From Bacteroidota bacterium (GTDB lineage Bacteria > Bacteroidota > Bacteroidia > Bacteroidales > UBA12077), in the NCBI GenBank assembly GCA_020444275.1, contig JAHLLG010000001.1:647773-711772 (forward strand): a stretch of 64,000 bases of DNA. The letters run 5' to 3'. The position numbers were made by a program, and so were the translations under genes. Of the stretch, positions 28,305-43,980 are shown piece after piece (the stretch's first letter is position 1; every line of letters begins with the position of its first letter). Below the pieces are notes generated by a model. It worked only from the letters and a program-made list of their open reading frames with translations. It was not told the DNA's origin and did no database searches.

Positions 28305-30152
28305 ATGGGTAAAAAAGCAGATACCATTGAACGTGAAGAGGTCGTTGTCCGGTTTTCGGGAGACTCTGGTGATGGTATGCAACTTACAGGGACGTTATTT
28401 TCGGATACGTCTGCATTTATAGGAAATGATTTATCAACATTTCCGGATTATCCTTCAGAAATCAGAGCTCCTCAAGGAACTATTGGTGGGGTTTCAGGTT
28501 TTCAGGTGCATGTAGGACAAACAGCAATTAAAACCCCGGGCGATTATGCCGATATCTTAGTTGCAATGAATCCTGCTGCATTAAAAGCAACATCAAAATG
28601 GGTTAAAGAAGGCGGAACCATCATTATCGATGAAGATAGTTTAGATGAGCGCGGCCTTAAAAAAGCTGGTTACAAAACCGATGACCCTATTAAAGAAGAT
28701 AAACTAGATAAATATAATATTATTCTTGCTCCCATTAGTTCTTTAACTAAAGAAGCTTTAAAAGATAAAGGTTTAGATCCGAAAAGTATCTTACGAAGCA
28801 AGAATATGTTTGCACTAGGTATGGTTTATTGGATTTTTGATCGCCCGTTAAATTATACCGAACAGTTCTTTGAAAAGAAATTTAAAAATAAACCCCTTGT
28901 TATTGATGCCAATAAAACTGTTTTAAGAGCTGGATACAATTATGCAGAAACAATGGAGCATATGGCTCCTTCTTATAAAGTAAGTCCTGCAAAAATTGAG
29001 AAAGGTACATACAGAAACATTAGTGGTAACATAGCAACAGCATGGGGATTTATTGCTGCAGCAGAAAAAGCGGGTTTAGAACTGTTTTGTGGTTCCTATC
29101 CTATTACTCCGGCAACAGAAATATTACAGGAGCTTTCTGTTAGAAAAGATTTAGGAGTAAAATCATTCCAGGCTGAAGATGAAATTGCAGGTATTTGTAC
29201 TTCAATAGGTGCAAGTTTTGCCGGTGATTTGGCAGTAACAACAACATCCGGACCTGGTCTAGCCCTTAAAGGTGAGGCCATAGGATTAGCTGTTATGACC
29301 GAGCTTCCTGTAGTAATTGTTAACGTTCAGCGAGGAGGACCATCAACAGGATTACCAACTAAACCAGAACAGTCGGATTTAATGCAAGCACTATACGGAA
29401 GAAACGGAGAAAGTCCGGTTGTAGTAATTGCAGCAAGCACCCCATCAAATTGCTTCCAATATGCATTTGAAGCTGCTAAAATAGCATTGGAGCATATGAC
29501 TCCCGTTATTTTACTTACTGATGGTTTTCTTGCAAATGGCTCAGAACCTTGGAGAATACCTAAGATGTCAGATTACCCGGAAATAAAAGCCCCAATTGCA
29601 AAAGAGGGAGATAAAGACTGGCAACCTTATGCTCGAGATGATGAAAAGTTAGCAAGAACTTGGGCAATACCGGGGATGAAAGAACTAGAGCACAGAATTG
29701 GTGGATTAGAAAAGGATGAGTTGAAGGGGTCTGTATCTCACGATCCGGTTAATCATCAAAAGATGGTTAATATTCGTGAAGAGAAAGTACAGCGAGTTAG
29801 TAAGTTTATTCCAGAACTTAAGGTTGATGGAAAAGAGAGCGGTAAATTATTAGTAGTTGGTTGGGGTGGTACTTATGGTCACTTGGCCACTGCTGTAAAA
29901 GATATGCAGGAAAAAGGAGCGGATATTAGCTTAGCTCATTTTAATTATATTAAACCTCTGCCTGCAAATGTAAAAGAGGTATTTAAGAATTTTGATAAGA
30001 TTGTTGTTTGCGAAAACAATATGGGTCAGTTTGCTGATTACCTTCGAATGACAAATCCTGAGTTTACCTATTTACAGTATAATAAAGTTCAGGGATTACC
30101 TTTTACAACAATCGAATTAGAAAATCATTTTGAAAAATTATTGGAGGAATAA
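28305..30152 (+). CDS. korA: 2-oxoacid:ferredoxin oxidoreductase, alpha subunit (gamma-alpha fusion)
   Basis: With the beta subunit, this enzyme oxidatively decarboxylates a 2-oxoacid to acyl-CoA and reduces ferredoxin; 2-oxoglutarate is the most likely substrate. The 615-residue protein begins with the gamma domain ('VVRFSGDSGDGMQLTGTLFS', about 9-28). The pyrimidine-binding alpha domain follows ('CGSYPITPATEILQELS' near 265) with a C-terminal domain. The gamma-alpha fusion is typical of two-subunit KorAB enzymes. Oxygen-sensitive enzymes of this kind suggest anaerobic or microaerobic life. korB follows 2 bases later. Confidence 0.93.
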   Translation: MGKKADTIEREEVVVRFSGDSGDGMQLTGTLFSDTSAFIGNDLSTFPDYPSEIRAPQGTIGGVSGFQVHVGQTAIKTPGDYADILVAMNPAALKATSKWVKEGGTIIIDEDSLDERGLKKAGYKTDDPIKEDKLDKYNIILAPISSLTKEALKDKGLDPKSILRSKNMFALGMVYWIFDRPLNYTEQFFEKKFKNKPLVIDANKTVLRAGYNYAETMEHMAPSYKVSPAKIEKGTYRNISGNIATAWGFIAAAEKAGLELFCGSYPITPATEILQELSVRKDLGVKSFQAEDEIAGICTSIGASFAGDLAVTTTSGPGLALKGEAIGLAVMTELPVVIVNVQRGGPSTGLPTKPEQSDLMQALYGRNGESPVVVIAASTPSNCFQYAFEAAKIALEHMTPVILLTDGFLANGSEPWRIPKMSDYPEIKAPIAKEGDKDWQPYARDDEKLARTWAIPGMKELEHRIGGLEKDELKGSVSHDPVNHQKMVNIREEKVQRVSKFIPELKVDGKESGKLLVVGWGGTYGHLATAVKDMQEKGADISLAHFNYIKPLPANVKEVFKNFDKIVVCENNMGQFADYLRMTNPEFTYLQYNKVQGLPFTTIELENHFEKLLEE

Positions 30153-30154
30153 CC

Positions 30155-31174
30155 ATGGCTGAAATACAAAATACACTTACTTCAAAAGATTATAAAAGTG
30201 ATCAGGAGGTTAGATGGTGTCCTGGTTGTGGTGACCATGCTATTATGAATGCTATTCAGAGAGCATTACCTGAATTAGACGTTAAAAAAGAAGATTTCGC
30301 ATTTATATCTGGTATTGGTTGTTCTTCGCGATTCCCTTACTATATGAATACTTATGGTTTTCATAGTATCCATGGTCGTGCATCAGCAATTGCTTCTGGT
30401 GTAAAAGTTGCTAATCCTAAGCTAAGTGTATGGCAAATTACTGGCGATGGTGATGCTATGGCTATTGGTGGTAATCATTTTATTCACGCAATTCGAAGAA
30501 ATATTGATGTAAATATTATTCTGTTTAATAACGAGATATACGGATTAACAAAAGGACAATACTCCCCAACCTCAAAATTTGGAGCAGTTACTAAAACATC
30601 TCCATACGGAACGGTTGAGCATCCTTTTCATCCGGGCGAACTCGTTATTGGTGCACAGGGAAAATTCTTTGCCCGATCTATAGATAGTAACTTAAAATTA
30701 AGCCAGGAAATATTTATTGAAGCTGGAAAATATCATGGAGCATCTGTTGTCGAAGTACTACAAAATTGTGTAATTTATAATGATAAGACACATGCTGCAC
30801 TTTCAGATCGTGAGCACAAGGAAGATAGAACTATTATACTTAAGCATGGTGAACCTATGATATTTGGTAAAGACAGAGATAAAGGTTTAATCTTAGACGC
30901 TGAGCATCTGAAATTAAAAGTAGTTGAGCTTGGCGATAAGTATACCGAAAAAGATCTTTTGGTGCATAATGCTAAAGAAAAAAATCCAGGTATTCATTTA
31001 ATGTTAGCAAACATGAGATATCCTGATTATCCTGTAGCTTTTGGTGTAATAAGATCTGTTGAAGCTCAAACTTACGATCAGGCTGTATCGAAACAAGTTG
31101 AGGAGATAAAAGCAAAATCAAGCTTTAAATGTGTTGATGACTTGTTAAACAGCGGAACTACCTGGGAAGTATAG
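30155..31174 (+). CDS. korB: 2-oxoacid:ferredoxin oxidoreductase, beta subunit
   Basis: This is the thiamine-diphosphate- and 4Fe-4S-binding subunit of KorAB. Of its 339 residues, 'RWCPGCGDHAIMNAIQRA' near the N-terminus carries two cluster Cys, and 'GIGCSSRFPYYMNTYGFH' carries a third. The TPP/Mg motif runs from 'QITGDGDAMAIGG' to 'NNEIYGLTKGQYSPTS'. It starts 2 bases after korA, after the Shine-Dalgarno-like GGAGG that overlaps the korA end. A perfect terminator follows. Confidence 0.94.
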   Translation: MAEIQNTLTSKDYKSDQEVRWCPGCGDHAIMNAIQRALPELDVKKEDFAFISGIGCSSRFPYYMNTYGFHSIHGRASAIASGVKVANPKLSVWQITGDGDAMAIGGNHFIHAIRRNIDVNIILFNNEIYGLTKGQYSPTSKFGAVTKTSPYGTVEHPFHPGELVIGAQGKFFARSIDSNLKLSQEIFIEAGKYHGASVVEVLQNCVIYNDKTHAALSDREHKEDRTIILKHGEPMIFGKDRDKGLILDAEHLKLKVVELGDKYTEKDLLVHNAKEKNPGIHLMLANMRYPDYPVAFGVIRSVEAQTYDQAVSKQVEEIKAKSSFKCVDDLLNSGTTWEV

Positions 31175-31200
31175 GATTAAAGGTTAAACAAAATATGAAA

Positions 31201-31231
31201 GAGATAAATCGAAAGATTTATCTCTTTTTTT
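31201..31231 (+). terminator. Rho-independent terminator after korB
   Basis: GAGATAAATC and GATTTATCTC form a perfect 10-bp stem around a GAAA tetraloop (31201-31224), followed by seven T. This is a strong intrinsic terminator that separates korAB from the receiver-PPDK_N genes. Confidence 0.93.
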
Positions 31232-31403: not shown

Positions 31404-34400
31404 ATGTCAGACCTCAATCAACCCAATAACGACTTTAAAAAACTTTTAGCTGAGAATAAAGAAAGGTTAAAAGAGTTAGCATGTATAAACGAAACTACGA
31501 AGATTATAAAGGAAGGCAAGTCTGTTGAAGAAACATTTCAGAAGATTGCACTGCGGTTGCCAAAGGCGTGGCAATATCCGGAATATACAGTGGCAAGAAT
31601 TGTTTATGGGGGGCACGAGTTTAGAAGTCCGGGTTTTAGAGAAACAAAGTGGTCGCAAATACAAACTTTTCAGTCGTTAGATGGTGAAGAAGGTTCCATT
31701 GAGATATTTTATACTAAGGAATTTCCCCGAATGTTCGAAGGGCCTTTCTTAAAAGAAGAAAGAGATCTGATATTGAACTTATCCAATTTATTACTTGGAT
31801 TCATTAATAGTATTAAAGCAAAGCAAATTATTTGGAAGAAGGATAAGCAAAGAGAAAAAAGAAAAGAAGGAGAAGGAAAAGGGAAAATCTTAAATAGCCG
31901 CCAATTACTACAAAAATTCCTAAATAAACATAATGCAGATCGTGATTTATTGCACGATCTGATGCCTTTTAAAGTTAAAGAAATTCTTTTAATTGCTAAT
32001 TTATACGATGCATACAGTATAGAGAAAGAAGGACGATTCTCAGACCATATATTGGGTGAATACCATCAGTTAAATCTTACATCTCTTCCGCGAGTAACAG
32101 GTGTTTCTAACGAAGAAGAAGCCTTAGAAGCCCTGGAGAATAAACATTTCGATTTAGTTATACTAATGATGGGTGTTGATAAAAAAACACCACTGGTTAT
32201 TGCACAAACTTTAAAAAAGAAGTATCCATATATTCCTACTTTTTTATTGTTAAATAATAATAGCGACATGGTAGTTCTGGAGCATGAGAAGAGAGATATG
32301 TCCAGCATTGATAAGATTTTTATTTGGAACGGTGATTCAAAGGTCTTCTTTGCCATGGTTAAACTTATTGAAGATAAAGTAAATGCCGATAATGACACTA
32401 AACTTGGTTTAACACGTGTAATTCTACTCGTTGAAGATTCTCCCAAATATTATTCAAGGTATTTACCAATGCTCTATAAAATTATAATGGAGCAGACACA
32501 ACGTTTAATTGAAGATGTGAATACCGATGATCTTTATAAGGTTTTAAAAATGAGGGCCAGACCAAAAATTTTATTAGCACATAGCTATGAAGAGGCAATG
32601 GATATTTTTAACATGTATAAAGATTACTTTTTATGTGTAATTTCTGATGTTTGTTTCCCTAAAGATGGTGAACTCTCTAAATCTGCCGGCTTTGAGTTTA
32701 TCAAGTTTGTAAAATCTAATGTATTGAATTTGCCAACGGTACTGCAATCATCAGATCCTGAAAATGCCAAAAAATCTTACGAGATTAAATCAAATTTTAT
32801 AAATAAAAATTCTGAGAGCTTATTACAAGATCTAAAAAGCTTTATTAACTATCACCTGGGATTTGGCCACTTTGTATATCGCGATAATCAAGGAAGACAG
32901 ATTGCAGTTGCCAAATCGATGGCCGAGTTTGAATCATACCTCAAAACGGTACCCGAAGATTCACTCATTTATCATGCAGTAAAAAATCAGTTTTCGCTAT
33001 GGCTAATGGCCAGAGGTGAAATTCAGATTGCTAAAATTATAAACCCGCTGCGCATAACAGACTTTGATAATCCGAATCAACTGCGTGATTTCTTAATTAA
33101 TATCTTAAAGCTCTACCGTAATGAACAGGAAAAGGGTAAGATTGTAAACTTTAGTGAATCGGCTGTTTTGGAAGAAAATAATATTGTAAGTCTCGCTCCC
33201 GGTGCATTAGGTGGTAAAGGGAGAGGATTAGCATTTATCAATACATTAATTTATAATTTTAAATTCAAGGAACTTTTACCACTAATTAACGTTCGTACAC
33301 CACGCACAAGTATTATTGGAACAGAAGAGTTCGATTTATTTATTGAGAGTAACCACCTTGCTGATGTTATACATGATGTTACCGATTATGGTGAGTTAAG
33401 AAGAATATTTCTTAATGGTGATCTGTCATACACTCTTAAAAAGAAATTAAAAACTTTTGTTAAGCTTATAACTAAGCCGATTGCGGTAAGATCATCAAGT
33501 TTGTTTGAAGATAGTATAACACAGCCTTTTTCCGGTATTTTTGAAACATATATACTTCCAAATAATGGTGAGGTCGACAAGCGTTTTAAGCAATTAATGA
33601 ATGCTATAAAACTGGTTTATGCCTCTATATATTCTAAAAATGCACGAACATATTTTAAGGCAATAGATTATAAAGTAGAGGAAGAGAAAATGGCGGTTGT
33701 GCTTCAGGAGGTTGTGGGAAATACGTTTAACGGATGCTATTATCCGCATATTAGCGGTACAGCCCAATCGCATAATTTTTACCCGGTGGCACATATGAAA
33801 CCTGACGAAGGATTTGCTGTGGCAGCATTGGGATTAGGTCAGTATGTGGTAGAAGGAGAAAAAGCATTTAGATTTTCACCCACTTACCCAAATTTGGATA
33901 TAGTTTCAACCAAAGATTTATATAAAGGATCTCAGGTGTATTTCTATGCTGTTGATTTAGATAAGAGCGATATCAACTTGCTGGAAGGAGAAGATGCAGG
34001 CTTGGTAAAACTCGATATTGATCAGGCAGAAAAGCACGGAACACTGAAGCACCTTGTGAGTGTATATAATCCAGAGAATGATACTGTGAGTCCCGGGTTA
34101 GACGCATACGGACCAAGGATAATCAATTTCGCCAATGTTTTAAAATACGAGTACATTCCGTTGGCAAAAACAATTAACGTAATACTTGATGTTGTTAAAG
34201 AAGCATTAGGTTCTCCGGTGGAAATAGAATTTGCAGTCGATTTAACCAAGGATAAAAGTGGATTGGCTTCGTTTTATTTATTACAAATTAAACCATTGGT
34301 ATGCAATGAAGATGATTTTAATGTAGATGTAAATAAAATAGATAAGAAGCATTTGGTGTTGTATTCCGAAAAAACAATGGGTAATGGTAAAATTCAAAAT

Positions 34401-34865
34401 ATTAAGGATGTAATTTATGTAATGCCCGAGAAATTTGATAATACCAAAACCGTGGAAATGAAAAATGAGATTGATGCATTAAACCAGAAGATGCAGGAAG
34501 CGGGGAAACAATATGTGCTTATTGGTCCGGGCCGTTGGGGAACACGAGACAGGTTTATTGGAATTCCGGTTGCCTGGCCCCAAATTTCTAATGCGAAAAT
34601 TATTGTTGAAATGAGCCTGGACGATTTTGCGCTGGATGCTTCTTTAGGTTCACATTTCTTTCACAATGTAACATCAATGAATGTTGGATATTTTTCCGTT
34701 AATCATAAATCGATTAAAGATAAAATTTCCTGGGATACGTTAAATAGTCAGAAAGTTGTAAATGAGTCGAAGTTTTTTAAACATGTTGAGTTTGAAAAGC
34801 CATTAACCATTATAATGGACGGTAGAAAAAGAATTTCGGCAATTACATGGAATAACAATAAATAA
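31404..34865 (+). CDS. Multidomain sensor/receiver-PEP/pyruvate-binding (PPDK_N) protein, copy 1
   Basis: The 1153-residue soluble protein has five parts. (1) About 20-140: a sensor domain resembling one found in some histidine kinases ('RLPKAWQYPEYTVARIVYGG', 'EGPFLKEERDLI'). (2) About 190-325: a receiver-like fold without the acidic pocket. (3) About 337-480: a receiver with Glu344/Asp345, candidate phospho-acceptor Asp415 ('VISDVCFP'), Ser449/450 and Lys468, interrupted by an insert. (4) About 595-965: a PPDK_N nucleotide-binding domain with 'GALGGKGRGLAFI' (GGK 603-605) and 'IAVRSSSLFEDS' (693-704). (5) A C-terminal domain with 'IGPGRWG' (1040-1046) and 'GSHFFHN'. No PEP-utilizer swivelling His domain is recognisable. 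Function unknown; inferred to be a signal-controlled phosphotransfer enzyme or scaffold. A paralogue follows 8 bases later. Confidence 0.88.
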   Translation: MSDLNQPNNDFKKLLAENKERLKELACINETTKIIKEGKSVEETFQKIALRLPKAWQYPEYTVARIVYGGHEFRSPGFRETKWSQIQTFQSLDGEEGSIEIFYTKEFPRMFEGPFLKEERDLILNLSNLLLGFINSIKAKQIIWKKDKQREKRKEGEGKGKILNSRQLLQKFLNKHNADRDLLHDLMPFKVKEILLIANLYDAYSIEKEGRFSDHILGEYHQLNLTSLPRVTGVSNEEEALEALENKHFDLVILMMGVDKKTPLVIAQTLKKKYPYIPTFLLLNNNSDMVVLEHEKRDMSSIDKIFIWNGDSKVFFAMVKLIEDKVNADNDTKLGLTRVILLVEDSPKYYSRYLPMLYKIIMEQTQRLIEDVNTDDLYKVLKMRARPKILLAHSYEEAMDIFNMYKDYFLCVISDVCFPKDGELSKSAGFEFIKFVKSNVLNLPTVLQSSDPENAKKSYEIKSNFINKNSESLLQDLKSFINYHLGFGHFVYRDNQGRQIAVAKSMAEFESYLKTVPEDSLIYHAVKNQFSLWLMARGEIQIAKIINPLRITDFDNPNQLRDFLINILKLYRNEQEKGKIVNFSESAVLEENNIVSLAPGALGGKGRGLAFINTLIYNFKFKELLPLINVRTPRTSIIGTEEFDLFIESNHLADVIHDVTDYGELRRIFLNGDLSYTLKKKLKTFVKLITKPIAVRSSSLFEDSITQPFSGIFETYILPNNGEVDKRFKQLMNAIKLVYASIYSKNARTYFKAIDYKVEEEKMAVVLQEVVGNTFNGCYYPHISGTAQSHNFYPVAHMKPDEGFAVAALGLGQYVVEGEKAFRFSPTYPNLDIVSTKDLYKGSQVYFYAVDLDKSDINLLEGEDAGLVKLDIDQAEKHGTLKHLVSVYNPENDTVSPGLDAYGPRIINFANVLKYEYIPLAKTINVILDVVKEALGSPVEIEFAVDLTKDKSGLASFYLLQIKPLVCNEDDFNVDVNKIDKKHLVLYSEKTMGNGKIQNIKDVIYVMPEKFDNTKTVEMKNEIDALNQKMQEAGKQYVLIGPGRWGTRDRFIGIPVAWPQISNAKIIVEMSLDDFALDASLGSHFFHNVTSMNVGYFSVNHKSIKDKISWDTLNSQKVVNESKFFKHVEFEKPLTIIMDGRKRISAITWNNNK

Positions 34866-34873
34866 AAATAACT

Positions 34874-37843
34874 ATGACATTTTATACAAACCAACAAGAT
34901 AGTTTAAAAATAGATTTTAACGATACATCTTTTAACCTGTTAATGCAACGAAGAATCCACAAAGTGCTTTTGGTTTCAAGTAATTACGATTCGTTTATGT
35001 TAGAGGAAGATGGTAGAATCGATGAGCAGATTTTTAATGAATACGTATCGTTAAACTTAAGGTATCCACCAATTTTTGTTATGGCAAATTCTGCCGACAA
35101 GGCACATGAGATTTTAAAGAATGATAGTATCGATCTGGTTATTAGCATGCTCAGAATTGGCGACACGGATACTTTCCAATTTGCTACTCAGGTTAAAAAG
35201 AATTATCCAAAAATACCAATTGTTATCTTAACCCATTTCTCACGCGAGATCACTATCAGGCTCGAAAAAGAAGATTTGAGTGCAATCGATTATGTTTTTT
35301 GTTGGTTAGGTAATGCTGATATCTTATTAGCAATTATTAAGCTTATTGAGGATAGAATGAATGTTCAGTATGATGTTGAAGTGGTTGGAGTACAAACCAT
35401 TCTCCTGGTAGAAGATTCAGTTCGCTATATATCAACATATTTACCAAACATTTATAAAATTATATTTAAGCAATCGAAAGAGTATATGCGGGAAGCATTG
35501 AACGAACACCAAAAAATGCTTCGAATGCGTGGGCGTCCTAAAATTCTTTTAGCAACAAATTACGAGCAGGCTCTTCAAATCTATGAAAAGTACAAATATA
35601 ATATGTTAGGTATTATTTCAGATATAACATATCCGAGAAAAGGAGTAAAGGATAAGTTGGCCGGAATAAAACTATGTAAGAAAGTTAAGGAAGATGATGA
35701 ATTCATGCCTTTACTGCTGCAGTCTTCAGATATGTCGAATAAGAAATATGCCGATGAATTAAAAGTAGGATTTATACATAAATATTCGAAAACGTTATCT
35801 ATAGAGCTTCGCAATTATATTATTAAACAATTTGCATTTGGCGAATTTGTATTTCGCGATCCGAACACTAACAAAGAAATAGGCAGAGCGTCAGATTTAC
35901 AGTCTTTGCAGCATATGATATTAACCATACCTGATAAATCATTAGCTTATCATGCCGGTCGCAATGATTTGTCAAAATGGCTTAATGCCAGGGCTGTTTT
36001 TCCTATTGCACAATTATTCAAATATCTAAAACTAAGCGATTTTAAGGATTTGAAGGAGGTGCGAACATATATTTATCGTGCCATTTCAAGCTATCGAATG
36101 AGCAAGGGTAGAGGTGTAATCGCTAAATTCGACAAAAATAGTTTCGACGAATACCTCATATTTTCTCGAATAGGAGATGGATCAATTGGTGGGAAAGCTA
36201 GAGGATTAGCATTCATAAACTCTATAATTAAAAAGAACAATATATTTAATAAATTTCCTGGAGTAATCATAACTATCCCAAGAACAGTTGTTTTGAGTAC
36301 CGACATTTTCGATGATTTTATGGAAGAAAATGATTTGTATAAAATAGGTATGTCGGATAAAAGTGATGAAGAGATTCTAACTAATTTTATTAGTGCTAAA
36401 CTGCCAAGTAGAGTATATCAGGATTTATATGCATTTATTTCGGTAATTAAAAATCCAATTGCAATTCGCTCCTCATCAAAATTGGAAGATTCACATTATC
36501 AGCCATTTGCCGGAATATACTCCACGTATATGATTCCAAAAACTTCCAATAATACATTAATGATTAAGATGCTTTCGGATGCTATTAAGTGTGTATATGC
36601 TTCTGTATATTTTAAAGGAAGTAAGGCCTATATGGCAGCAACATCAAATGTTATTGATGAGGAAAAAATGGGAATTGTACTACAAGAAGTGTGCGGCAAA
36701 CAGTATGGTAACATGTTTTATCCTACAATATCCGGGGTAGCGCGTTCAATAAACTTTTACCCTATTGAACCTGAAAAATCGGAAGATGGAATAGCTAATA
36801 TTGCCTATGGTCTGGGAAAACAAATTGTTGATGGTGGAATATCATTGCGCTTTTCACCAAAGCACCCTAAAAAAGTCTTGCAACTTTCTTCTCCCGATAT
36901 GGCATTAAAAGATACACAAAAGTATTTTTATGGGCTGGATATGTGTCCTACAAAATTTGAACCATCAACAGACGATGGCATAAACCTGGTAAAAAACGAA
37001 ATACAGAAAGCTGAAAAACACTCATCTTTCAATTATTCTGCATCAACTTACGATTTTCAAAATCATGTAATTAGAGACGGAACTATTTACGATGGAAAAA
37101 GAGTTATTACGTTTGCCAATGTGCTCAAATACGATTCTTTTCCATTGGCTGAAATATTGAAAACATTATTAGATGTTGGTCAGAAAGAAATGAATAATCC
37201 TATTGAAATTGAGTTTGCTGTTGATTTAAATGTAGAGAAAGGACAGCCTGTTGTATTTAATTTCTTACAAATTCGACCAATTGTTGATAACGATCAATCA
37301 GCCGATGTAGATCTGGACGAAGTAAAAATGGAAGATTCTATTATTTACTGCGAATCGGCATTGGGCAATGGACAGATTGATAATATGTGCGATTTTGTAT
37401 ATGTTAAACCAGAGGCTTTTTCTTCATTGGAAAGCAAAAATATTGCAGCCGAAATCAACTTATTAAACGAGAAATTCATTAATGAAACGAGAAATTATGT
37501 ATTGGTTGGTCCGGGAAGATGGGGATCAAGTGATCCCAGCCTCGGAATACCAGTAAAATGGGCGCATATTTCCCAGGCAAGAGTTATTGTTGAATCTGGA
37601 TTAGAGAATTTTAGAATTGACCCAAGTCAGGGAACTCACTTTTTTCAGAATTTAACTTCATTTCGCGTAGGTTACTTTACTATAAATCCTTATATCAACG
37701 ATGGATTTTATGATTTGGATTATTTGAACAGCTTTAAAGCGCATTTTGAGAATAAATATATAAGGCACATTCGATTTAAAAAGCCTATGCTTGTTCAGAT
37801 TGATGGTAAAAATAACAAAGGAGTTATTTTAAAGACAGAATAG
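34874..37843 (+). CDS. Receiver-PEP/pyruvate-binding (PPDK_N) protein, copy 2
   Basis: This 989-residue paralogue of the preceding gene lacks the N-terminal sensor domain. It begins directly with the degenerate receiver (about 28-160). The second receiver (about 173-315) has Glu180/Asp181, Asp250 ('IISDITYP'), Ser284/285 and Lys303. The PPDK_N domain shows 'GSIGGKARGLAFI' (GGK 439-441) and 'IAIRSSSKLEDS' (529-540), with the C-terminal 'VGPGRWG' (878-884) and 'GTHFFQN' (His922). As in copy 1, no classical phosphohistidine swivelling domain follows. The two genes are 8 bases apart and must be one transcript; products may form a hetero-complex. Exact reaction unknown. Confidence 0.87.
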   Translation: MTFYTNQQDSLKIDFNDTSFNLLMQRRIHKVLLVSSNYDSFMLEEDGRIDEQIFNEYVSLNLRYPPIFVMANSADKAHEILKNDSIDLVISMLRIGDTDTFQFATQVKKNYPKIPIVILTHFSREITIRLEKEDLSAIDYVFCWLGNADILLAIIKLIEDRMNVQYDVEVVGVQTILLVEDSVRYISTYLPNIYKIIFKQSKEYMREALNEHQKMLRMRGRPKILLATNYEQALQIYEKYKYNMLGIISDITYPRKGVKDKLAGIKLCKKVKEDDEFMPLLLQSSDMSNKKYADELKVGFIHKYSKTLSIELRNYIIKQFAFGEFVFRDPNTNKEIGRASDLQSLQHMILTIPDKSLAYHAGRNDLSKWLNARAVFPIAQLFKYLKLSDFKDLKEVRTYIYRAISSYRMSKGRGVIAKFDKNSFDEYLIFSRIGDGSIGGKARGLAFINSIIKKNNIFNKFPGVIITIPRTVVLSTDIFDDFMEENDLYKIGMSDKSDEEILTNFISAKLPSRVYQDLYAFISVIKNPIAIRSSSKLEDSHYQPFAGIYSTYMIPKTSNNTLMIKMLSDAIKCVYASVYFKGSKAYMAATSNVIDEEKMGIVLQEVCGKQYGNMFYPTISGVARSINFYPIEPEKSEDGIANIAYGLGKQIVDGGISLRFSPKHPKKVLQLSSPDMALKDTQKYFYGLDMCPTKFEPSTDDGINLVKNEIQKAEKHSSFNYSASTYDFQNHVIRDGTIYDGKRVITFANVLKYDSFPLAEILKTLLDVGQKEMNNPIEIEFAVDLNVEKGQPVVFNFLQIRPIVDNDQSADVDLDEVKMEDSIIYCESALGNGQIDNMCDFVYVKPEAFSSLESKNIAAEINLLNEKFINETRNYVLVGPGRWGSSDPSLGIPVKWAHISQARVIVESGLENFRIDPSQGTHFFQNLTSFRVGYFTINPYINDGFYDLDYLNSFKAHFENKYIRHIRFKKPMLVQIDGKNNKGVILKTE

Positions 37844-37898: not shown

Positions 37899-38585
37899 GT
37901 GATGAGAAAACTAATCGGATTACTTCTTCCTTTATTATTGATGTATGGCATTTCGTGTGCTCAGGAAAACCAACAAGACTGCAAAGTACTTGTAAAAGAA
38001 ATTTCAGATTCTTACCGCGGCGACTGTAAAGATGGATTAGCACATGGTGATGGTATAGCATCAGGTATTGATGTTTACCAGGGGAAGTTTAAAAATGGCT
38101 ATCCATGGGGTAGCGGTAAGTATATATGGGCAAACGGAGATTATTACGACGGACGTTGGAAAAAGGGTGAAAGAAATGGTAAAGGTATTCTGTATACAAA
38201 AAAATCTGATACTGAGATAAAAGGAATCTGGAGAAATGATGAATTTGTCAGAGAGTTAAAAGACCCGCCATATGAGGTAACTTTGAAATATGGTGTTACT
38301 GGCTTAAACTTTTATAAGTACGACGAAAACGAACCGCATGATATTGAGGTTCAGTTTCAAAGAGATGGGAGTCAATCAAGTCTTGTGGGACAATTACTTT
38401 TAGTTTCAACCAGCGGTAGTATAAAAACATCTAATAGTTTCAGTGGTTTTGAAAAGGTTCAATTCCCTTTTGAAGGATCCGTTGAATTTGTTGAACCAAG
38501 TAGAATGGGTTCTGTTAATGTGAGGTATGAAGTAAAGTTTAAAATTATAGAGGAAGGATCCTGGAGAATTGTAATTCGCTATTAA
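37899..38585 (+). CDS. MORN-repeat lipoprotein
   Basis: The 228-residue product has a lipoprotein signal with Cys after 'LLMYGIS'. About three MORN repeats follow (roughly residues 35-115: 'YQGKFKNGYPWGSGKYIWAN', 'YYDGRWKKGERNGKGILYT'). A C-terminal beta-rich region without known motif completes it. Bacterial MORN proteins are mostly of unknown role; some bind lipids or other proteins. It follows the receiver-PPDK_N pair by 55 bases in the same direction and may be part of that transcript. Confidence 0.83.
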   Translation: MMRKLIGLLLPLLLMYGISCAQENQQDCKVLVKEISDSYRGDCKDGLAHGDGIASGIDVYQGKFKNGYPWGSGKYIWANGDYYDGRWKKGERNGKGILYTKKSDTEIKGIWRNDEFVRELKDPPYEVTLKYGVTGLNFYKYDENEPHDIEVQFQRDGSQSSLVGQLLLVSTSGSIKTSNSFSGFEKVQFPFEGSVEFVEPSRMGSVNVRYEVKFKIIEEGSWRIVIRY

Positions 38586-38680: not shown

Positions 38681-38688
38681 TATTTTTG
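38681..38688 (+). promoter_or_regulatory. -7 box for gdhA
   Basis: TATTTTTG fits TAnnTTTG and is 61 bases before the gdhA start. Its last base is the first base of the adjoining inverted repeat, so the predicted transcription start (about 38695) falls inside that repeat. Confidence 0.6.
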
Positions 38689-38711
38689 TACTGTTATTTA
38701 ATTAACAGTAC
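38688..38711. promoter_or_regulatory. Perfect inverted repeat at the gdhA transcription start
   Basis: GTACTGTTA (38688-38696) and TAACAGTAC (38703-38711) form a perfect 9-bp inverted repeat with a TTTAAT spacer. It abuts the -7 box, covers the predicted start of transcription and is followed by TTTT. It is a candidate operator or 5'-end hairpin controlling glutamate dehydrogenase. Confidence 0.6.
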
Positions 38712-38748: not shown

Positions 38749-40089
38749 ATGAATGTAGATAAATTAATGCTTCAGTTGGAGCAAAAACATCCGGGAGAAT
38801 CTGAATATCTTCAGGCCGTACGCGAAGTATTAGAATCAATCGAGGAAGTTTACAATCAAAACCCTCAATTCGAAGCAGCAGGTATCATCGAGCGCATCGT
38901 TGAGCCAGATCGTATTTTAACCTTTAAGGTGCCTTGGGTAGGCGACGATGGAAAAGTAAACGTTAACTTAGGTTACCGTGTACAATTTAATAACGCTATT
39001 GGACCATACAAAGGTGGCTTACGTTTTCACCCAAGTGTAACTTTAAGCGGATTAAAATTCTTAGGATTCGAGCAAATCTTCAAGAATTCATTAACAACCC
39101 TACCAATGGGTGGTGGTAAAGGAGGATCTGATTTCAATCCAAAAGGAAAATCAGATGCGGAAGTAATGCGTTTTTGCCAGTCATTCATGATGGAATTATG
39201 GAAACTGATCGGACCAGAGACAGATGTACCAGCAGGAGACATCGGAGTAGGTGGCCGTGAGATTGGTTTCTTATATGGAATGTACAGAAAATTAGCAAGA
39301 GAAAATACAGGAGTATTAACCGGAAAAGGTGGTAACTGGGGAGGAAGTTTAATTCGTCCTGAGGCAACAGGTTTCGGTAATGTATACTTTGCCAAAGAGA
39401 TGTTAGCAACTAAAGGAGAATCATTCGAAGGTAAAACAGTTGCTATTTCTGGTTTTGGTAACGTATCTTGGGGTGCAACAATGAAAGCTACTGAGTTAGG
39501 AGCAAAAGTTGTATGTATTTCAGGTCCTGATGGATATATCTACGATCCAGATGGAATCAATACTGAAGAGAAATTTAATTACATGTTAGAGCTTCGTGCT
39601 TCTAATAACGATATTGTTAAGCCTTATTCATATAAATTTGAAAATGCTCAGTTCTTTGAAGGTAAAAAACCTTGGGAACAAAAAGTTGATATTGCTCTTC
39701 CATGTGCAATTCAGAACGAATTAAACGAAGAAGATGCTAAGCAATTAGTAGCTAACGGATGTATTTGTATTTCAGAAGGTGCCAACATGCCATGTACACC
39801 AGAGGCAATTGAAGTAATCCAAGAGAATAAGTTACTTTATGGTCCTGGTAAAGCTGCTAACGCAGGTGGTGTTGCAACTTCAGGATTAGAAATGTCACAA
39901 AACTCTATGAAGTTAAGCTGGAGTAGAGAAGAAGTTGATGAGAAATTACACGGAATTATGTGTAACATCCACGAAGCATGTGTTAAGTATGGAAAAGATG
40001 CCGATGGTCATGTTGACTATGTAAAAGGAGCCAATATTGCTGGTTTCTTGAAAGTTGCCAACGCAATGTTAGATCAAGGAGTTATTTAA
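38749..40089 (+). CDS. gdhA: NADP-specific glutamate dehydrogenase
   Basis: This enzyme reductively aminates 2-oxoglutarate to glutamate, assimilating ammonium. The 446-residue hexameric form has 'YKGGLRFHPSVTLSGLKFL', the catalytic Lys region 'LPMGGGKGGSDF' (about 120-131), 'PAGDIGVGGREIG' and the dinucleotide fold 'VAISGFGNVSWGA' (about 227). Its codons look optimised, as expected for a highly expressed gene. It is monocistronic, with its own promoter and two downstream hairpins. Its substrate links it to KorAB upstream. Confidence 0.97.
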   Translation: MNVDKLMLQLEQKHPGESEYLQAVREVLESIEEVYNQNPQFEAAGIIERIVEPDRILTFKVPWVGDDGKVNVNLGYRVQFNNAIGPYKGGLRFHPSVTLSGLKFLGFEQIFKNSLTTLPMGGGKGGSDFNPKGKSDAEVMRFCQSFMMELWKLIGPETDVPAGDIGVGGREIGFLYGMYRKLARENTGVLTGKGGNWGGSLIRPEATGFGNVYFAKEMLATKGESFEGKTVAISGFGNVSWGATMKATELGAKVVCISGPDGYIYDPDGINTEEKFNYMLELRASNNDIVKPYSYKFENAQFFEGKKPWEQKVDIALPCAIQNELNEEDAKQLVANGCICISEGANMPCTPEAIEVIQENKLLYGPGKAANAGGVATSGLEMSQNSMKLSWSREEVDEKLHGIMCNIHEACVKYGKDADGHVDYVKGANIAGFLKVANAMLDQGVI

Positions 40090-42204: not shown

Positions 42205-43980
42205 TTACGTATTGGCTTTGGGTAAAGAAAAGAGAAATTCTATACCTCCTCCATTTTTATTTTTTACGGAAATTTCTCCTTTGTGAAGCATAACAGCATT
42301 TTTTACAATTGCTAATCCAAGCCCTGTGCCTCCTAATTTTCGAGATCTGTCAGAATCTATTCTGTAAAAACGCTCAAATATCCTGGCTAGATGTTCATCA
42401 GGAATACCAACACCATTGTCTGATAAAGAGAAATAATAGAAATTATTATCCTGTCTGTAGATTTGGATCGTTATTTTGCACTTTTGGCCAGCGTAGTTTA
42501 TCGAATTTTCAAGTAAATTTCTAAATACAGATAAAATAAGAGATCTGTTTCCACTAACAATAATATCTTCATGCAGTAACAATTCTATCTTCATCGACTT
42601 CTCGGTAATCATACTTTGGTAATCATCGAGTATTTCATCAATTATTTCGTTAATGTTCAGATTAGTGAATGCAAAAAAGTCGCCGGTTTCCTCAATTTTA
42701 TTTAAGATTACAATATCATTAATCAGATCTGTAAGTCGATTCGTTTGAGCATCGGCACGTTCAATAAATCTTCGTTGCTGAGCAGGTTCCATTTCAGGAT
42801 CATTAATTATAGTCTCAAGATATCCTTTAATGGAAGTTATTGGAGTTTTTAATTCATGAGAAATATTGGAGGTCATTTGTTGTTTAATAATCCTGTTCTT
42901 TTCCATTTTTGTGATATTGGTAATAATAATCTCAAAACTGTTATCATTAAAAATAATACATTGTATTTTGAAATATTTAGCACTTTTATGAATTGATATT
43001 TCTTTACTTGGTAAGGTTTCAAACAGGTCTAACTTAGCCTTTGTTATGGTTTGATCAATAAACTCATTAATTGGATCAAACTCAGGTATTGTAAAAAAAT
43101 CTTCAGCCGATATGGAAAGCTTGTTCGATATGATATTCAAGTACTGAATAAAATGATTATTGGTTAGTATTTTGGTTTTATTTTTTGAAAAAAATGCGAC
43201 TCCTTCGTTTAAAACATAAAGATGGTTAAATAACTTTCCTTTTTCCAGAGCGAGTGAATCTTTAGCTTTTCTAAGATTGTCGTAAAGTTGAATTATTTCA
43301 TGTCCGATTACACCTAGCTCATCCTTTGGAAATTTTTGATCAGCTTCAAAATCTTCATCTTTTCTCACTTTTATCACAAAATCTTTAAGTTTTGTAATAG
43401 ATTCCGCAAATTTTCTGGTAATAAAATCTAAAACAATCCAGGTGAGCAGAAATATTACTGCAATAAAAAGCAGGAAAATGTGTTCAGCACGAAGAAAATT
43501 CTTTACTTCAATATTATAAACTACCGCAACTCGAATAAAATACTCGCCAAAATATCTTGAATAGTAGTAATATTCCTGTCCGGTAGTAACAGATCTTCGA
43601 ATAATTGTTCCATAATCATTATACAACGATTCTTGAATTTCAGGCCGGTACAGGTGATTCTCCATCAAACTGTAATTATCGACAAAATTGTCGAACAATA
43701 CCGTACCATGAGAATTGATCAACGTTAAACGAACATCTGGTTGAGGAAATATTTTTGTTAACGAATCAAGTAAATTTAACTTATTATTTTCAAGGATAGC
43801 GTTATGAGCAATAAAATGATGTGTAATCTGTGTTATATTTTCCAGTGTATTATCCAGCTGGTCTACCCTGTACTTCTTTTCACGCGAAAACTGAAAAACA
43901 AGTATTATTAATGTAAAAACAAGAAATACCGAAAAGAAATATACAAATAATTTCTTACGAAATGAGAATCTTTTAATCAT
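42205..43980 (-). CDS. Membrane sensor histidine kinase (PhoR-like)
   Basis: The 591-residue protein has TM1 (about 12-30), an extracytoplasmic sensor region (about 35-165) and TM2 (about 167-188). A HAMP-like segment and a degenerate PAS region (about 245-355) follow. The dimerisation/His box is 'SNISHELKTPITSIKG' (His near 377). The ATPase domain has 'NLLENSINYA', 'DNGVGIPDEH' and 'GGTGLGLAIVKNA'. This is the PhoR-type arrangement. No response-regulator gene lies beside it, which is unusual for this type; its partner must be encoded elsewhere. Confidence 0.9.
   Translation of the reverse strand: MIKRFSFRKKLFVYFFSVFLVFTLIILVFQFSREKKYRVDQLDNTLENITQITHHFIAHNAILENNKLNLLDSLTKIFPQPDVRLTLINSHGTVLFDNFVDNYSLMENHLYRPEIQESLYNDYGTIIRRSVTTGQEYYYYSRYFGEYFIRVAVVYNIEVKNFLRAEHIFLLFIAVIFLLTWIVLDFITRKFAESITKLKDFVIKVRKDEDFEADQKFPKDELGVIGHEIIQLYDNLRKAKDSLALEKGKLFNHLYVLNEGVAFFSKNKTKILTNNHFIQYLNIISNKLSISAEDFFTIPEFDPINEFIDQTITKAKLDLFETLPSKEISIHKSAKYFKIQCIIFNDNSFEIIITNITKMEKNRIIKQQMTSNISHELKTPITSIKGYLETIINDPEMEPAQQRRFIERADAQTNRLTDLINDIVILNKIEETGDFFAFTNLNINEIIDEILDDYQSMITEKSMKIELLLHEDIIVSGNRSLILSVFRNLLENSINYAGQKCKITIQIYRQDNNFYYFSLSDNGVGIPDEHLARIFERFYRIDSDRSRKLGGTGLGLAIVKNAVMLHKGEISVKNKNGGGIEFLFSLPKANT

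Follow-up and report, generated by a model that had tools for sequence, protein, structure and literature searches.

VadK (Rv1127c), a histidine kinase derived from PPDK, is reported to control the methylcitrate cycle (PMC13400623). VadK is described there as composed of the canonical PPDK His domain and an ATP-binding domain only, and its gene lies close to the genes of enzymes that it reportedly regulates. PPDK_N enzymes use ATP to phosphorylate a His, as described for rifampin phosphotransferase (RPH; PMC4844700). In the two-component dikinases HpeHI and PpsAB, the ATP-grasp domain is alone on its chain; in HpeHI, the His and substrate domains are on a separate chain (PMC12167813). With regard to glutamate dehydrogenase (GDH), a 1996 paper by Baggio and Morrison, listed among the references of PMC4539542, refers in its title to trans-acting gene(s) downstream of gdhA that affect GDH activity in Bacteroides thetaiotaomicron.

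The window analysed here, a stretch of 64,000 nucleotides from a Bacteroidota genome, encodes two adjacent paralogues at 31404-37843, P0001 and P0002, separated by 8 bp. Both ORFs had been proposed in an earlier, sequence-only reading and were found at these coordinates. A GDH gene, which that reading did not mention, follows 0.9 kb downstream of P0002. The features of the locus are as follows.

28305-31174, plus strand: 2-oxoacid:acceptor oxidoreductase alpha and beta (two ORFs; alpha over an NCBIfam cut-off, beta under)
31404-34865, plus strand: P0001, 1153 aa; sensor-like domain, receiver 1, receiver 2, PPDK_N and C-terminal His domain (from the ORF, Pfam and alignment with P0002 and homologues)
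31404-31898, plus strand: P0001 N-terminal sensor-like domain, residues 1-165 (from its recurrence in ORFs of the same genome, in 18/20 group 3 homologues and in a sensor-nucleotidyltransferase protein next to another GDH)
31977-32408, plus strand: P0001 receiver 1, degenerate (weak PF00072 match at residues 226-291, under the cut-off; acceptor column without Asp)
32412-32858, plus strand: P0001 receiver 2 (Asp415 codon 32646-32648; aligned to P0002 receiver 2, Asp/Ser/Lys kept)
33207-34346, plus strand: P0001 PPDK_N ATP-grasp domain, residues 602-981 (PF01326, E 2.2e-36; Lys in place of the QxR Arg)
34350-34862, plus strand: P0001 C-terminal domain with GPGRWG (His1084 codon 34653-34655; from alignment)
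34874-37843, plus strand: P0002, 989 aa; receiver 1, receiver 2, PPDK_N and C-terminal His domain (from the ORF, Pfam and a structure model)
34958-35386, plus strand: P0002 receiver 1, degenerate (best PF00072 stretch 70-141; acceptor column without Asp)
35390-35833, plus strand: P0002 receiver 2 (Asp250 codon 35621-35623; Asp/Ser/Lys kept)
36182-37333, plus strand: P0002 PPDK_N ATP-grasp domain, residues 437-820 (PF01326, E 1.9e-38)
37334-37840, plus strand: P0002 C-terminal domain with GPGRWG (His922 codon 37637-37639; from the model and alignment)
37899-38585, plus strand: MORN-repeat protein with a GTG start, between P0002 and GDH (PF02493)
38749-40089, plus strand: GDH, 446 aa (NCBIfam PRK14030, 840 bits, cut-off 743), the proposed target

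No NCBIfam model reached its cut-off in P0001 or P0002. The scores were 39 and 24.2 bits for PEP synthase (TIGR01418, cut-off 739.75) and 21.7 and 15.2 bits for RPH (NF041857, cut-off 999), the latter from the N-terminal part only. The full-length structure of P0002 was predicted with a pLDDT of 88.3 and a pTM of 0.81. In Foldseek, the top PDB matches of this model were the RPH structures 5hv3 (5e-12), which was the best, and 5hv2 (3e-9) and the ATP-grasp relative HpeI (9goj, E 2e-10), followed by receiver proteins. The 5hv3 match (412 columns) was taken to represent the ATP-grasp region, since the ATP-grasp-only HpeI aligns over 391 columns. A DUF5752-like stretch lies between the receivers and PPDK_N (weak, under the Pfam cut-off). 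The N-terminal sensor-like domain of P0001 is absent from the sequence-only reading and is added here; it was found again in other ORFs of the same genome, one of which is a PAS-HisKA-HATPase histidine kinase by Pfam. We take this domain to be GAF-like.

Conservation was determined in 160 distinct sequences covering the core of the family, of which 122 bear receivers. With the Pfam model Response_reg (cut-off 30.2), P0002 passed at 41.2 bits over two stretches, while P0001 stayed short at 18.3. The acceptor residue of receiver 2 (Asp250/Asp415) is Asp in all 121 receiver-bearing homologues with a residue at this position, one further sequence having a gap. Glu180 (121/122), Ser284 (120/122) and Lys303 (121/122) are likewise kept, which gives receiver 2 of the family the acceptor Asp, acidic pair, Ser/Thr and Lys of a response regulator. 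The acceptor column of receiver 1 holds Asp in 0/122 sequences (Met 87, Thr 25, Trp 6, others 4). The earlier description of a degenerate receiver followed by an intact one hence applies throughout the receiver-bearing members.

PF01326 matched both ATP-grasp domains well over its cut-off (126 bits for P0001, 133 bits for P0002). The GGK and RSSS motifs described earlier for both proteins recur in the family, with the GGK Lys in 158/158, RSS in 160/160 and the third Ser in 156/160 sequences; Lys441, Arg532, Glu780 and Gln799 are invariant where present. Profile alignment (hhalign) gave a probability of 99.2% to PEP synthase, with GGK, RSSxxxED, D/ExE and QxR all matched, and of 2.4% to PPDK. 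P0001 belongs to a clade of 13 sequences (support 0.975) in which the QxR Arg is replaced by Lys in 13/13, against Arg in the other 147, so P0001 and P0002 may differ in activity.

The His of the GSHFF/GTHFF motif in the C-terminal domain (His922/His1084), previously put forward as a candidate phosphocarrier, is present in 160/160 homologues and is the sole invariant His. Arg882-Trp883 of GxGRWG are kept in 160/160 and Asp887 in 159/160 sequences, while Glu907 and Tyr934 are invariant where present. Modelled alone, the C-terminal domain of P0002 gave a pLDDT of 91.3 and a pTM of 0.89. The order of elements in the model is strand, strand, helix, strand, short helix, strand, helix, strands, and the second long helix begins one residue before His922. 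This order, with the His at a helix start, resembles that of the swivelling domain.

With Pfam, neither PF00391 nor PF02896 matched P0001 or P0002 at E<=1, in agreement with the earlier statement that the His swivelling domain and the PEP-binding TIM barrel are not recognisable. A hidden swivelling domain at the C-terminus was looked for with Pfam, PDB profile, hhalign and Foldseek searches and was found by none of them. PF00391 was detected in 0/61 C-terminal domains of members, and the nine families that did match did so in a single member each, at E 0.017 or weaker. A PDB sequence-profile search with the domain yielded nothing significant (best E 0.044), hhalign found no link to 13 PPDK swivel regions or to 11 PEP synthases and 13 PPDKs, and Foldseek returned no PDB match at E<=0.001 among the best 50 of 470 weak matches. 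The motif T/SxxGGxxxH, given for the swivelling domain in PMC12167813, is absent from the C-terminal domain. In the own genome, PF00391 was found only in a 919-aa ORF on another contig, which is also the best PPDK_N match there. Neither an intact swivelling or PEP-binding domain nor a loss of the receiver Asp or of GGK among homologues, which the sequence-only reading had named as observations that would speak against it, was seen.

Compared to PEP synthase and PPDK, the family thus shares the ATP-grasp domain with GGK, RSSxxxED, ExE and QxR, but is without the PF00391 swivelling domain and the PF02896 barrel. In HpeHI the functions are split between chains, whereas here the ATP-grasp domain and the candidate His are on one chain, the former fused to receivers and the C-terminal domain. 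In layout the family partly resembles VadK (PMC13400623): a PPDK_N-type ATP-grasp domain is followed by a domain with the candidate His, a PEP-binding domain was not found, and the gene of the family lies near a gene for a putative target, GDH, in many genomes. It differs from VadK in that its C-terminal domain is not the canonical His domain and is unrecognised, in its two receivers and in the neighbouring GDH.

The family was detected in 49/296 genomes of the phylum, the own genome included, and was not found described in the listed open-licence papers, as judged by title and start of abstract. Three architectures were distinguished. Group 1 (28 sequences plus P0001 and P0002) has the order receiver, receiver, PPDK_N, C-terminal domain. 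Group 2 (n=11, about 580 aa) consists of PPDK_N and the C-terminal domain only. Group 3 proteins contain the same core with sensor and nucleotidyltransferase modules in place of the receivers, are mostly about 1060 aa long (shortest 778) and carry the N-terminal sensor-like domain known from P0001 in 18/20 cases; a C-terminal nucleotidyltransferase scored over the Pfam cut-off in 4/5 scanned, L045 being the exception. In the genus Bacteroides (that of G230), the family occurs in 96/99 genomes, including 63/63 good ones and all with a completeness >=97% (68-69 genomes). One Bacteroides genome has the family gene as two adjoining pieces (G369:C74:19511-22440).

For the gene neighbourhood, 120 loci were sampled, comprising 80 named loci and 40 regions (20 of group 2/3, 20 of group 1) that were hand-picked from the 73 family matches listed and in which adjacency was counted by eye. 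A gene cluster with a median length of 445 aa occurs in 60/120 loci, and the window GDH is matched by 87/87 of its members. The ORF next to the family gene encodes GDH in 16/20 regions of group 2/3, 17/20 of group 1 and 21/80 named loci; for a GDH at up to 5 kb, the corresponding values are 16/20, 17/20 and 27/80. All 16 adjacencies of group 2/3 are on the same strand, with the GDH of L039 standing beside a group 1 gene. One of the four group 2/3 regions without an adjacent GDH (L034) has lost its GDH side at a contig end. Contig ends as the cause of the weaker linkage in the named loci were ruled out, since GDH is present in only 15/38 of those with 5 kb on both flanks. The weaker linkage there is consequently real and lowers the case for GDH.

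The linked GDHs are of two types, 62 with 57-85% identity to the window GDH and 25 with 30-34%, the latter mostly 428-429 aa long. Loci with the window type number 17 in group 1 and 27 among the named ones; those with the type of about 428 aa number 16 in group 2/3 and 8 in group 1. Pfam identified two GDHs per type as glutamate-type dehydrogenases (4/4). Linkage to two GDH types raises the case for GDH.

Among 84 typed family matches in Bacteroides, 67 share their contig with a listed GDH, at a distance of up to 1 kb in 27 cases, up to 5 kb in 53 and up to 100 kb in 66 (median 1754 bp, maximum 225 kb). The 14 remaining Bacteroides matches add one more pair, at 8.9 kb. Random placement would give a distance of up to 5 kb in about 0.7% of cases (two GDHs in 4.4 Mb), a value to be read with the reservation that genomes of one genus are not independent trials. 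The pairs more than 5 kb apart (14/67) include those of the large genomes G363, G373, G389 and G403, at 44-61 kb. In G230, G238, G371, G376, G394 and G411 the family gene is convergent with a GDH and lies 100-319 bp 3' of it. Such varying orientation indicates that the linkage is not one frozen operon.

In 20 sampled genomes without the family, a GDH match was found in 20/20 and a window-type GDH in 13/20 (56-67% identical). When the window-type GDHs were compared, 59 linked against 13 from family-less genomes, no position passed the set rule for separating residues, so no modification site is visible. In locus L092, the gene between the family gene and GDH (L092:8526-9677) encodes a 383-aa protein in which the sensor-like domain seen in P0001 is joined to a Crp-type part that binds cyclic nucleotides and DNA. 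The relative in L152, a contig named Deltaproteobacteria, adjoins a DUF790 protein and an XPB-like helicase; its genome, whose completeness is not established, gave no GDH match at 1e-20.

The own genome has four GDH genes. On contig C3 at about 96-99 kb (L243:8070-11175), a GDH 90% identical to that of the window is followed by genes for a calcineurin-like phosphoesterase and a 276-aa protein. The phosphoesterase (Pfam 49.5 bits, cut-off 21.5) is 55% identical to a group 3 neighbour, and the same phosphoesterase cluster stands beside the family in 10/20 group 2/3 regions, in L051 with a small ORF between. The 276-aa protein corresponds to both ends of the group 3 proteins, with a sensor (37% identical to L037) and a nucleotidyltransferase (44%; Pfam 27 bits, cut-off 21), and is without the PPDK_N core. 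Since these parts are fused in group 3 and split in the own genome, we read them as one GDH-linked control module. Two more GDHs, sharing 97% and 62% identity with that of the window, lie close together elsewhere in the own genome (L244:7254-11421); no family member was found in the surrounding 19 kb.

Because three architectures are linked to GDH, a role in controlling glutamate metabolism is suggested. The reading that we tentatively place first, with close to an even chance of being right, is that P0001 and P0002 are signal-gated, dikinase-derived regulatory histidine kinases that set the activity of the GDH encoded beside them. Based on the analogy to VadK and the PPDK_N enzymes and on the GDH linkage, we infer autophosphorylation, with GDH as the target. 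The ATP-grasp domain would use ATP to phosphorylate the C-terminal domain at His922, or at His1084 in P0001. The gate might be phosphorylation of Asp250/Asp415 in receiver 2 or, in P0001, the sensor domain, and the phospho-His form would bind GDH or hand the phosphate on, changing GDH activity. The sequence-only reading had arrived at a receiver-controlled phosphotransferase with a C-terminal His phosphocarrier and a substrate that it left unnamed. The kept ATP-grasp set, Asp250 and His922 fit the first part, in which the reaction remains putative, and the GDH linkage narrows the second toward glutamate metabolism.

In a wider scheme, Bacteroidota would have a dedicated covalent control of GDH with a role like that of the glutamine synthetase nucleotidylylation cascade. 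Dikinase-derived His kinases, either receiver-gated or nucleotidyltransferase-fused, would act as writers, and the metallophosphoesterase would be the eraser; the phosphate would travel from ATP via the new His domain to GDH. We consider this scheme possible, but on the unlikely side.

A metabolic dikinase is a rather improbable explanation, at about one chance in a few. Its substrate would be a small molecule from the metabolism of glutamate or 2-oxoglutarate; the receivers would switch the enzyme on and off, and both the His and the substrate site would be in the C-terminal domain. Apart from VadK, the characterised PPDK_N enzymes considered here (PEP synthase, PPDK, RPH and HpeHI) phosphorylate small molecules, and genes for 2-oxoacid oxidoreductase, malic enzyme and peptidases are among the neighbours of the family. 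However, Pfam detected no PEP-binding or other substrate domain, the receiver, sensor and nucleotidyltransferase modules are signalling parts, and the commonest neighbour is a single enzyme, GDH, rather than a pathway.

We regard it as quite unlikely that the family is merely co-regulated with GDH and acts on another target, for instance a transcription factor or a further receiver, in response to a nitrogen signal that both share. The often divergent orientation of family gene and GDH in Bacteroides would suit this explanation, as would the histidine kinase and LuxR regulator in 5 neighbourhoods, the majority of named loci without GDH within 5 kb and the L152 genome without a GDH match; it is opposed by the same-strand linkage in 16/20 regions, the three architectures and the two GDH types. 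Equally doubtful is a pseudo-kinase scaffold that binds nucleotide and, switched by receiver phosphorylation, only titrates or stabilises GDH with no phospho-His chemistry, because the otherwise complete ATP-grasp set and the His in 160/160 sequences are hard to explain without chemistry, even though the QxR Arg is Lys in 13/13 of the P0001-type clade and no recognised His domain is present.

GDH is a main ammonia entry point in Bacteroidota, including the gut genus Bacteroides. The position of the family beside GDH in many Bacteroidota suggests an undescribed way of governing nitrogen uptake and release in these bacteria. If the family does act as regulatory histidine kinases, a dikinase would have become a signalling kinase by a second route, beside VadK, and here the fold of the C-terminal domain is not a recognised one.

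The family is a concrete candidate for the trans-acting gene of B. thetaiotaomicron (Baggio and Morrison 1996). Going by the title, that gene lies outside gdhA and affects GDH activity; the family is core in the same genus, with a gene of 3 kb. The title also places it downstream of gdhA, whereas in four large-genome Bacteroides 44-61 kb separate the family gene from the closest GDH listed. In one of these, G373, one GDH is followed on its 3' side by a gene that clusters with an M24 peptidase. A 3-kb segment was reportedly needed in the 1996 work. A search of the open-licence literature by name and locus tag returned only BT_1971, a catalase. GDH of B. fragilis reportedly undergoes reversible inactivation; a report of this was not found in the open-licence literature.

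Further neighbours of the family are S9 peptidase, M24 peptidase and malic enzyme genes, as well as a histidine kinase with a LuxR-type regulator in the 5 neighbourhoods mentioned. In 7 named loci, relatives of the oxidoreductase alpha and beta (56-73% identical) immediately precede the family gene. The MORN protein has a relative (49% identical) at the same position in L074 only and none in the other 119/120 loci. In the window, an ORF at 42205-43980 on the minus strand appears histidine-kinase-like by eye. Promoter-like sites are no commoner in the window than in shuffles (47 against 55.2), whereas 14 matches to a hairpin pattern were found against 6.2 expected, these being pattern matches only. 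One hairpin with a T run follows the oxidoreductase genes (31198-31227; listed on the minus strand by the scan, the plus-strand T run having been read separately) and another precedes GDH (38688-38711), so that transcription of P0001, P0002 and the MORN gene may be joint and that of GDH separate.
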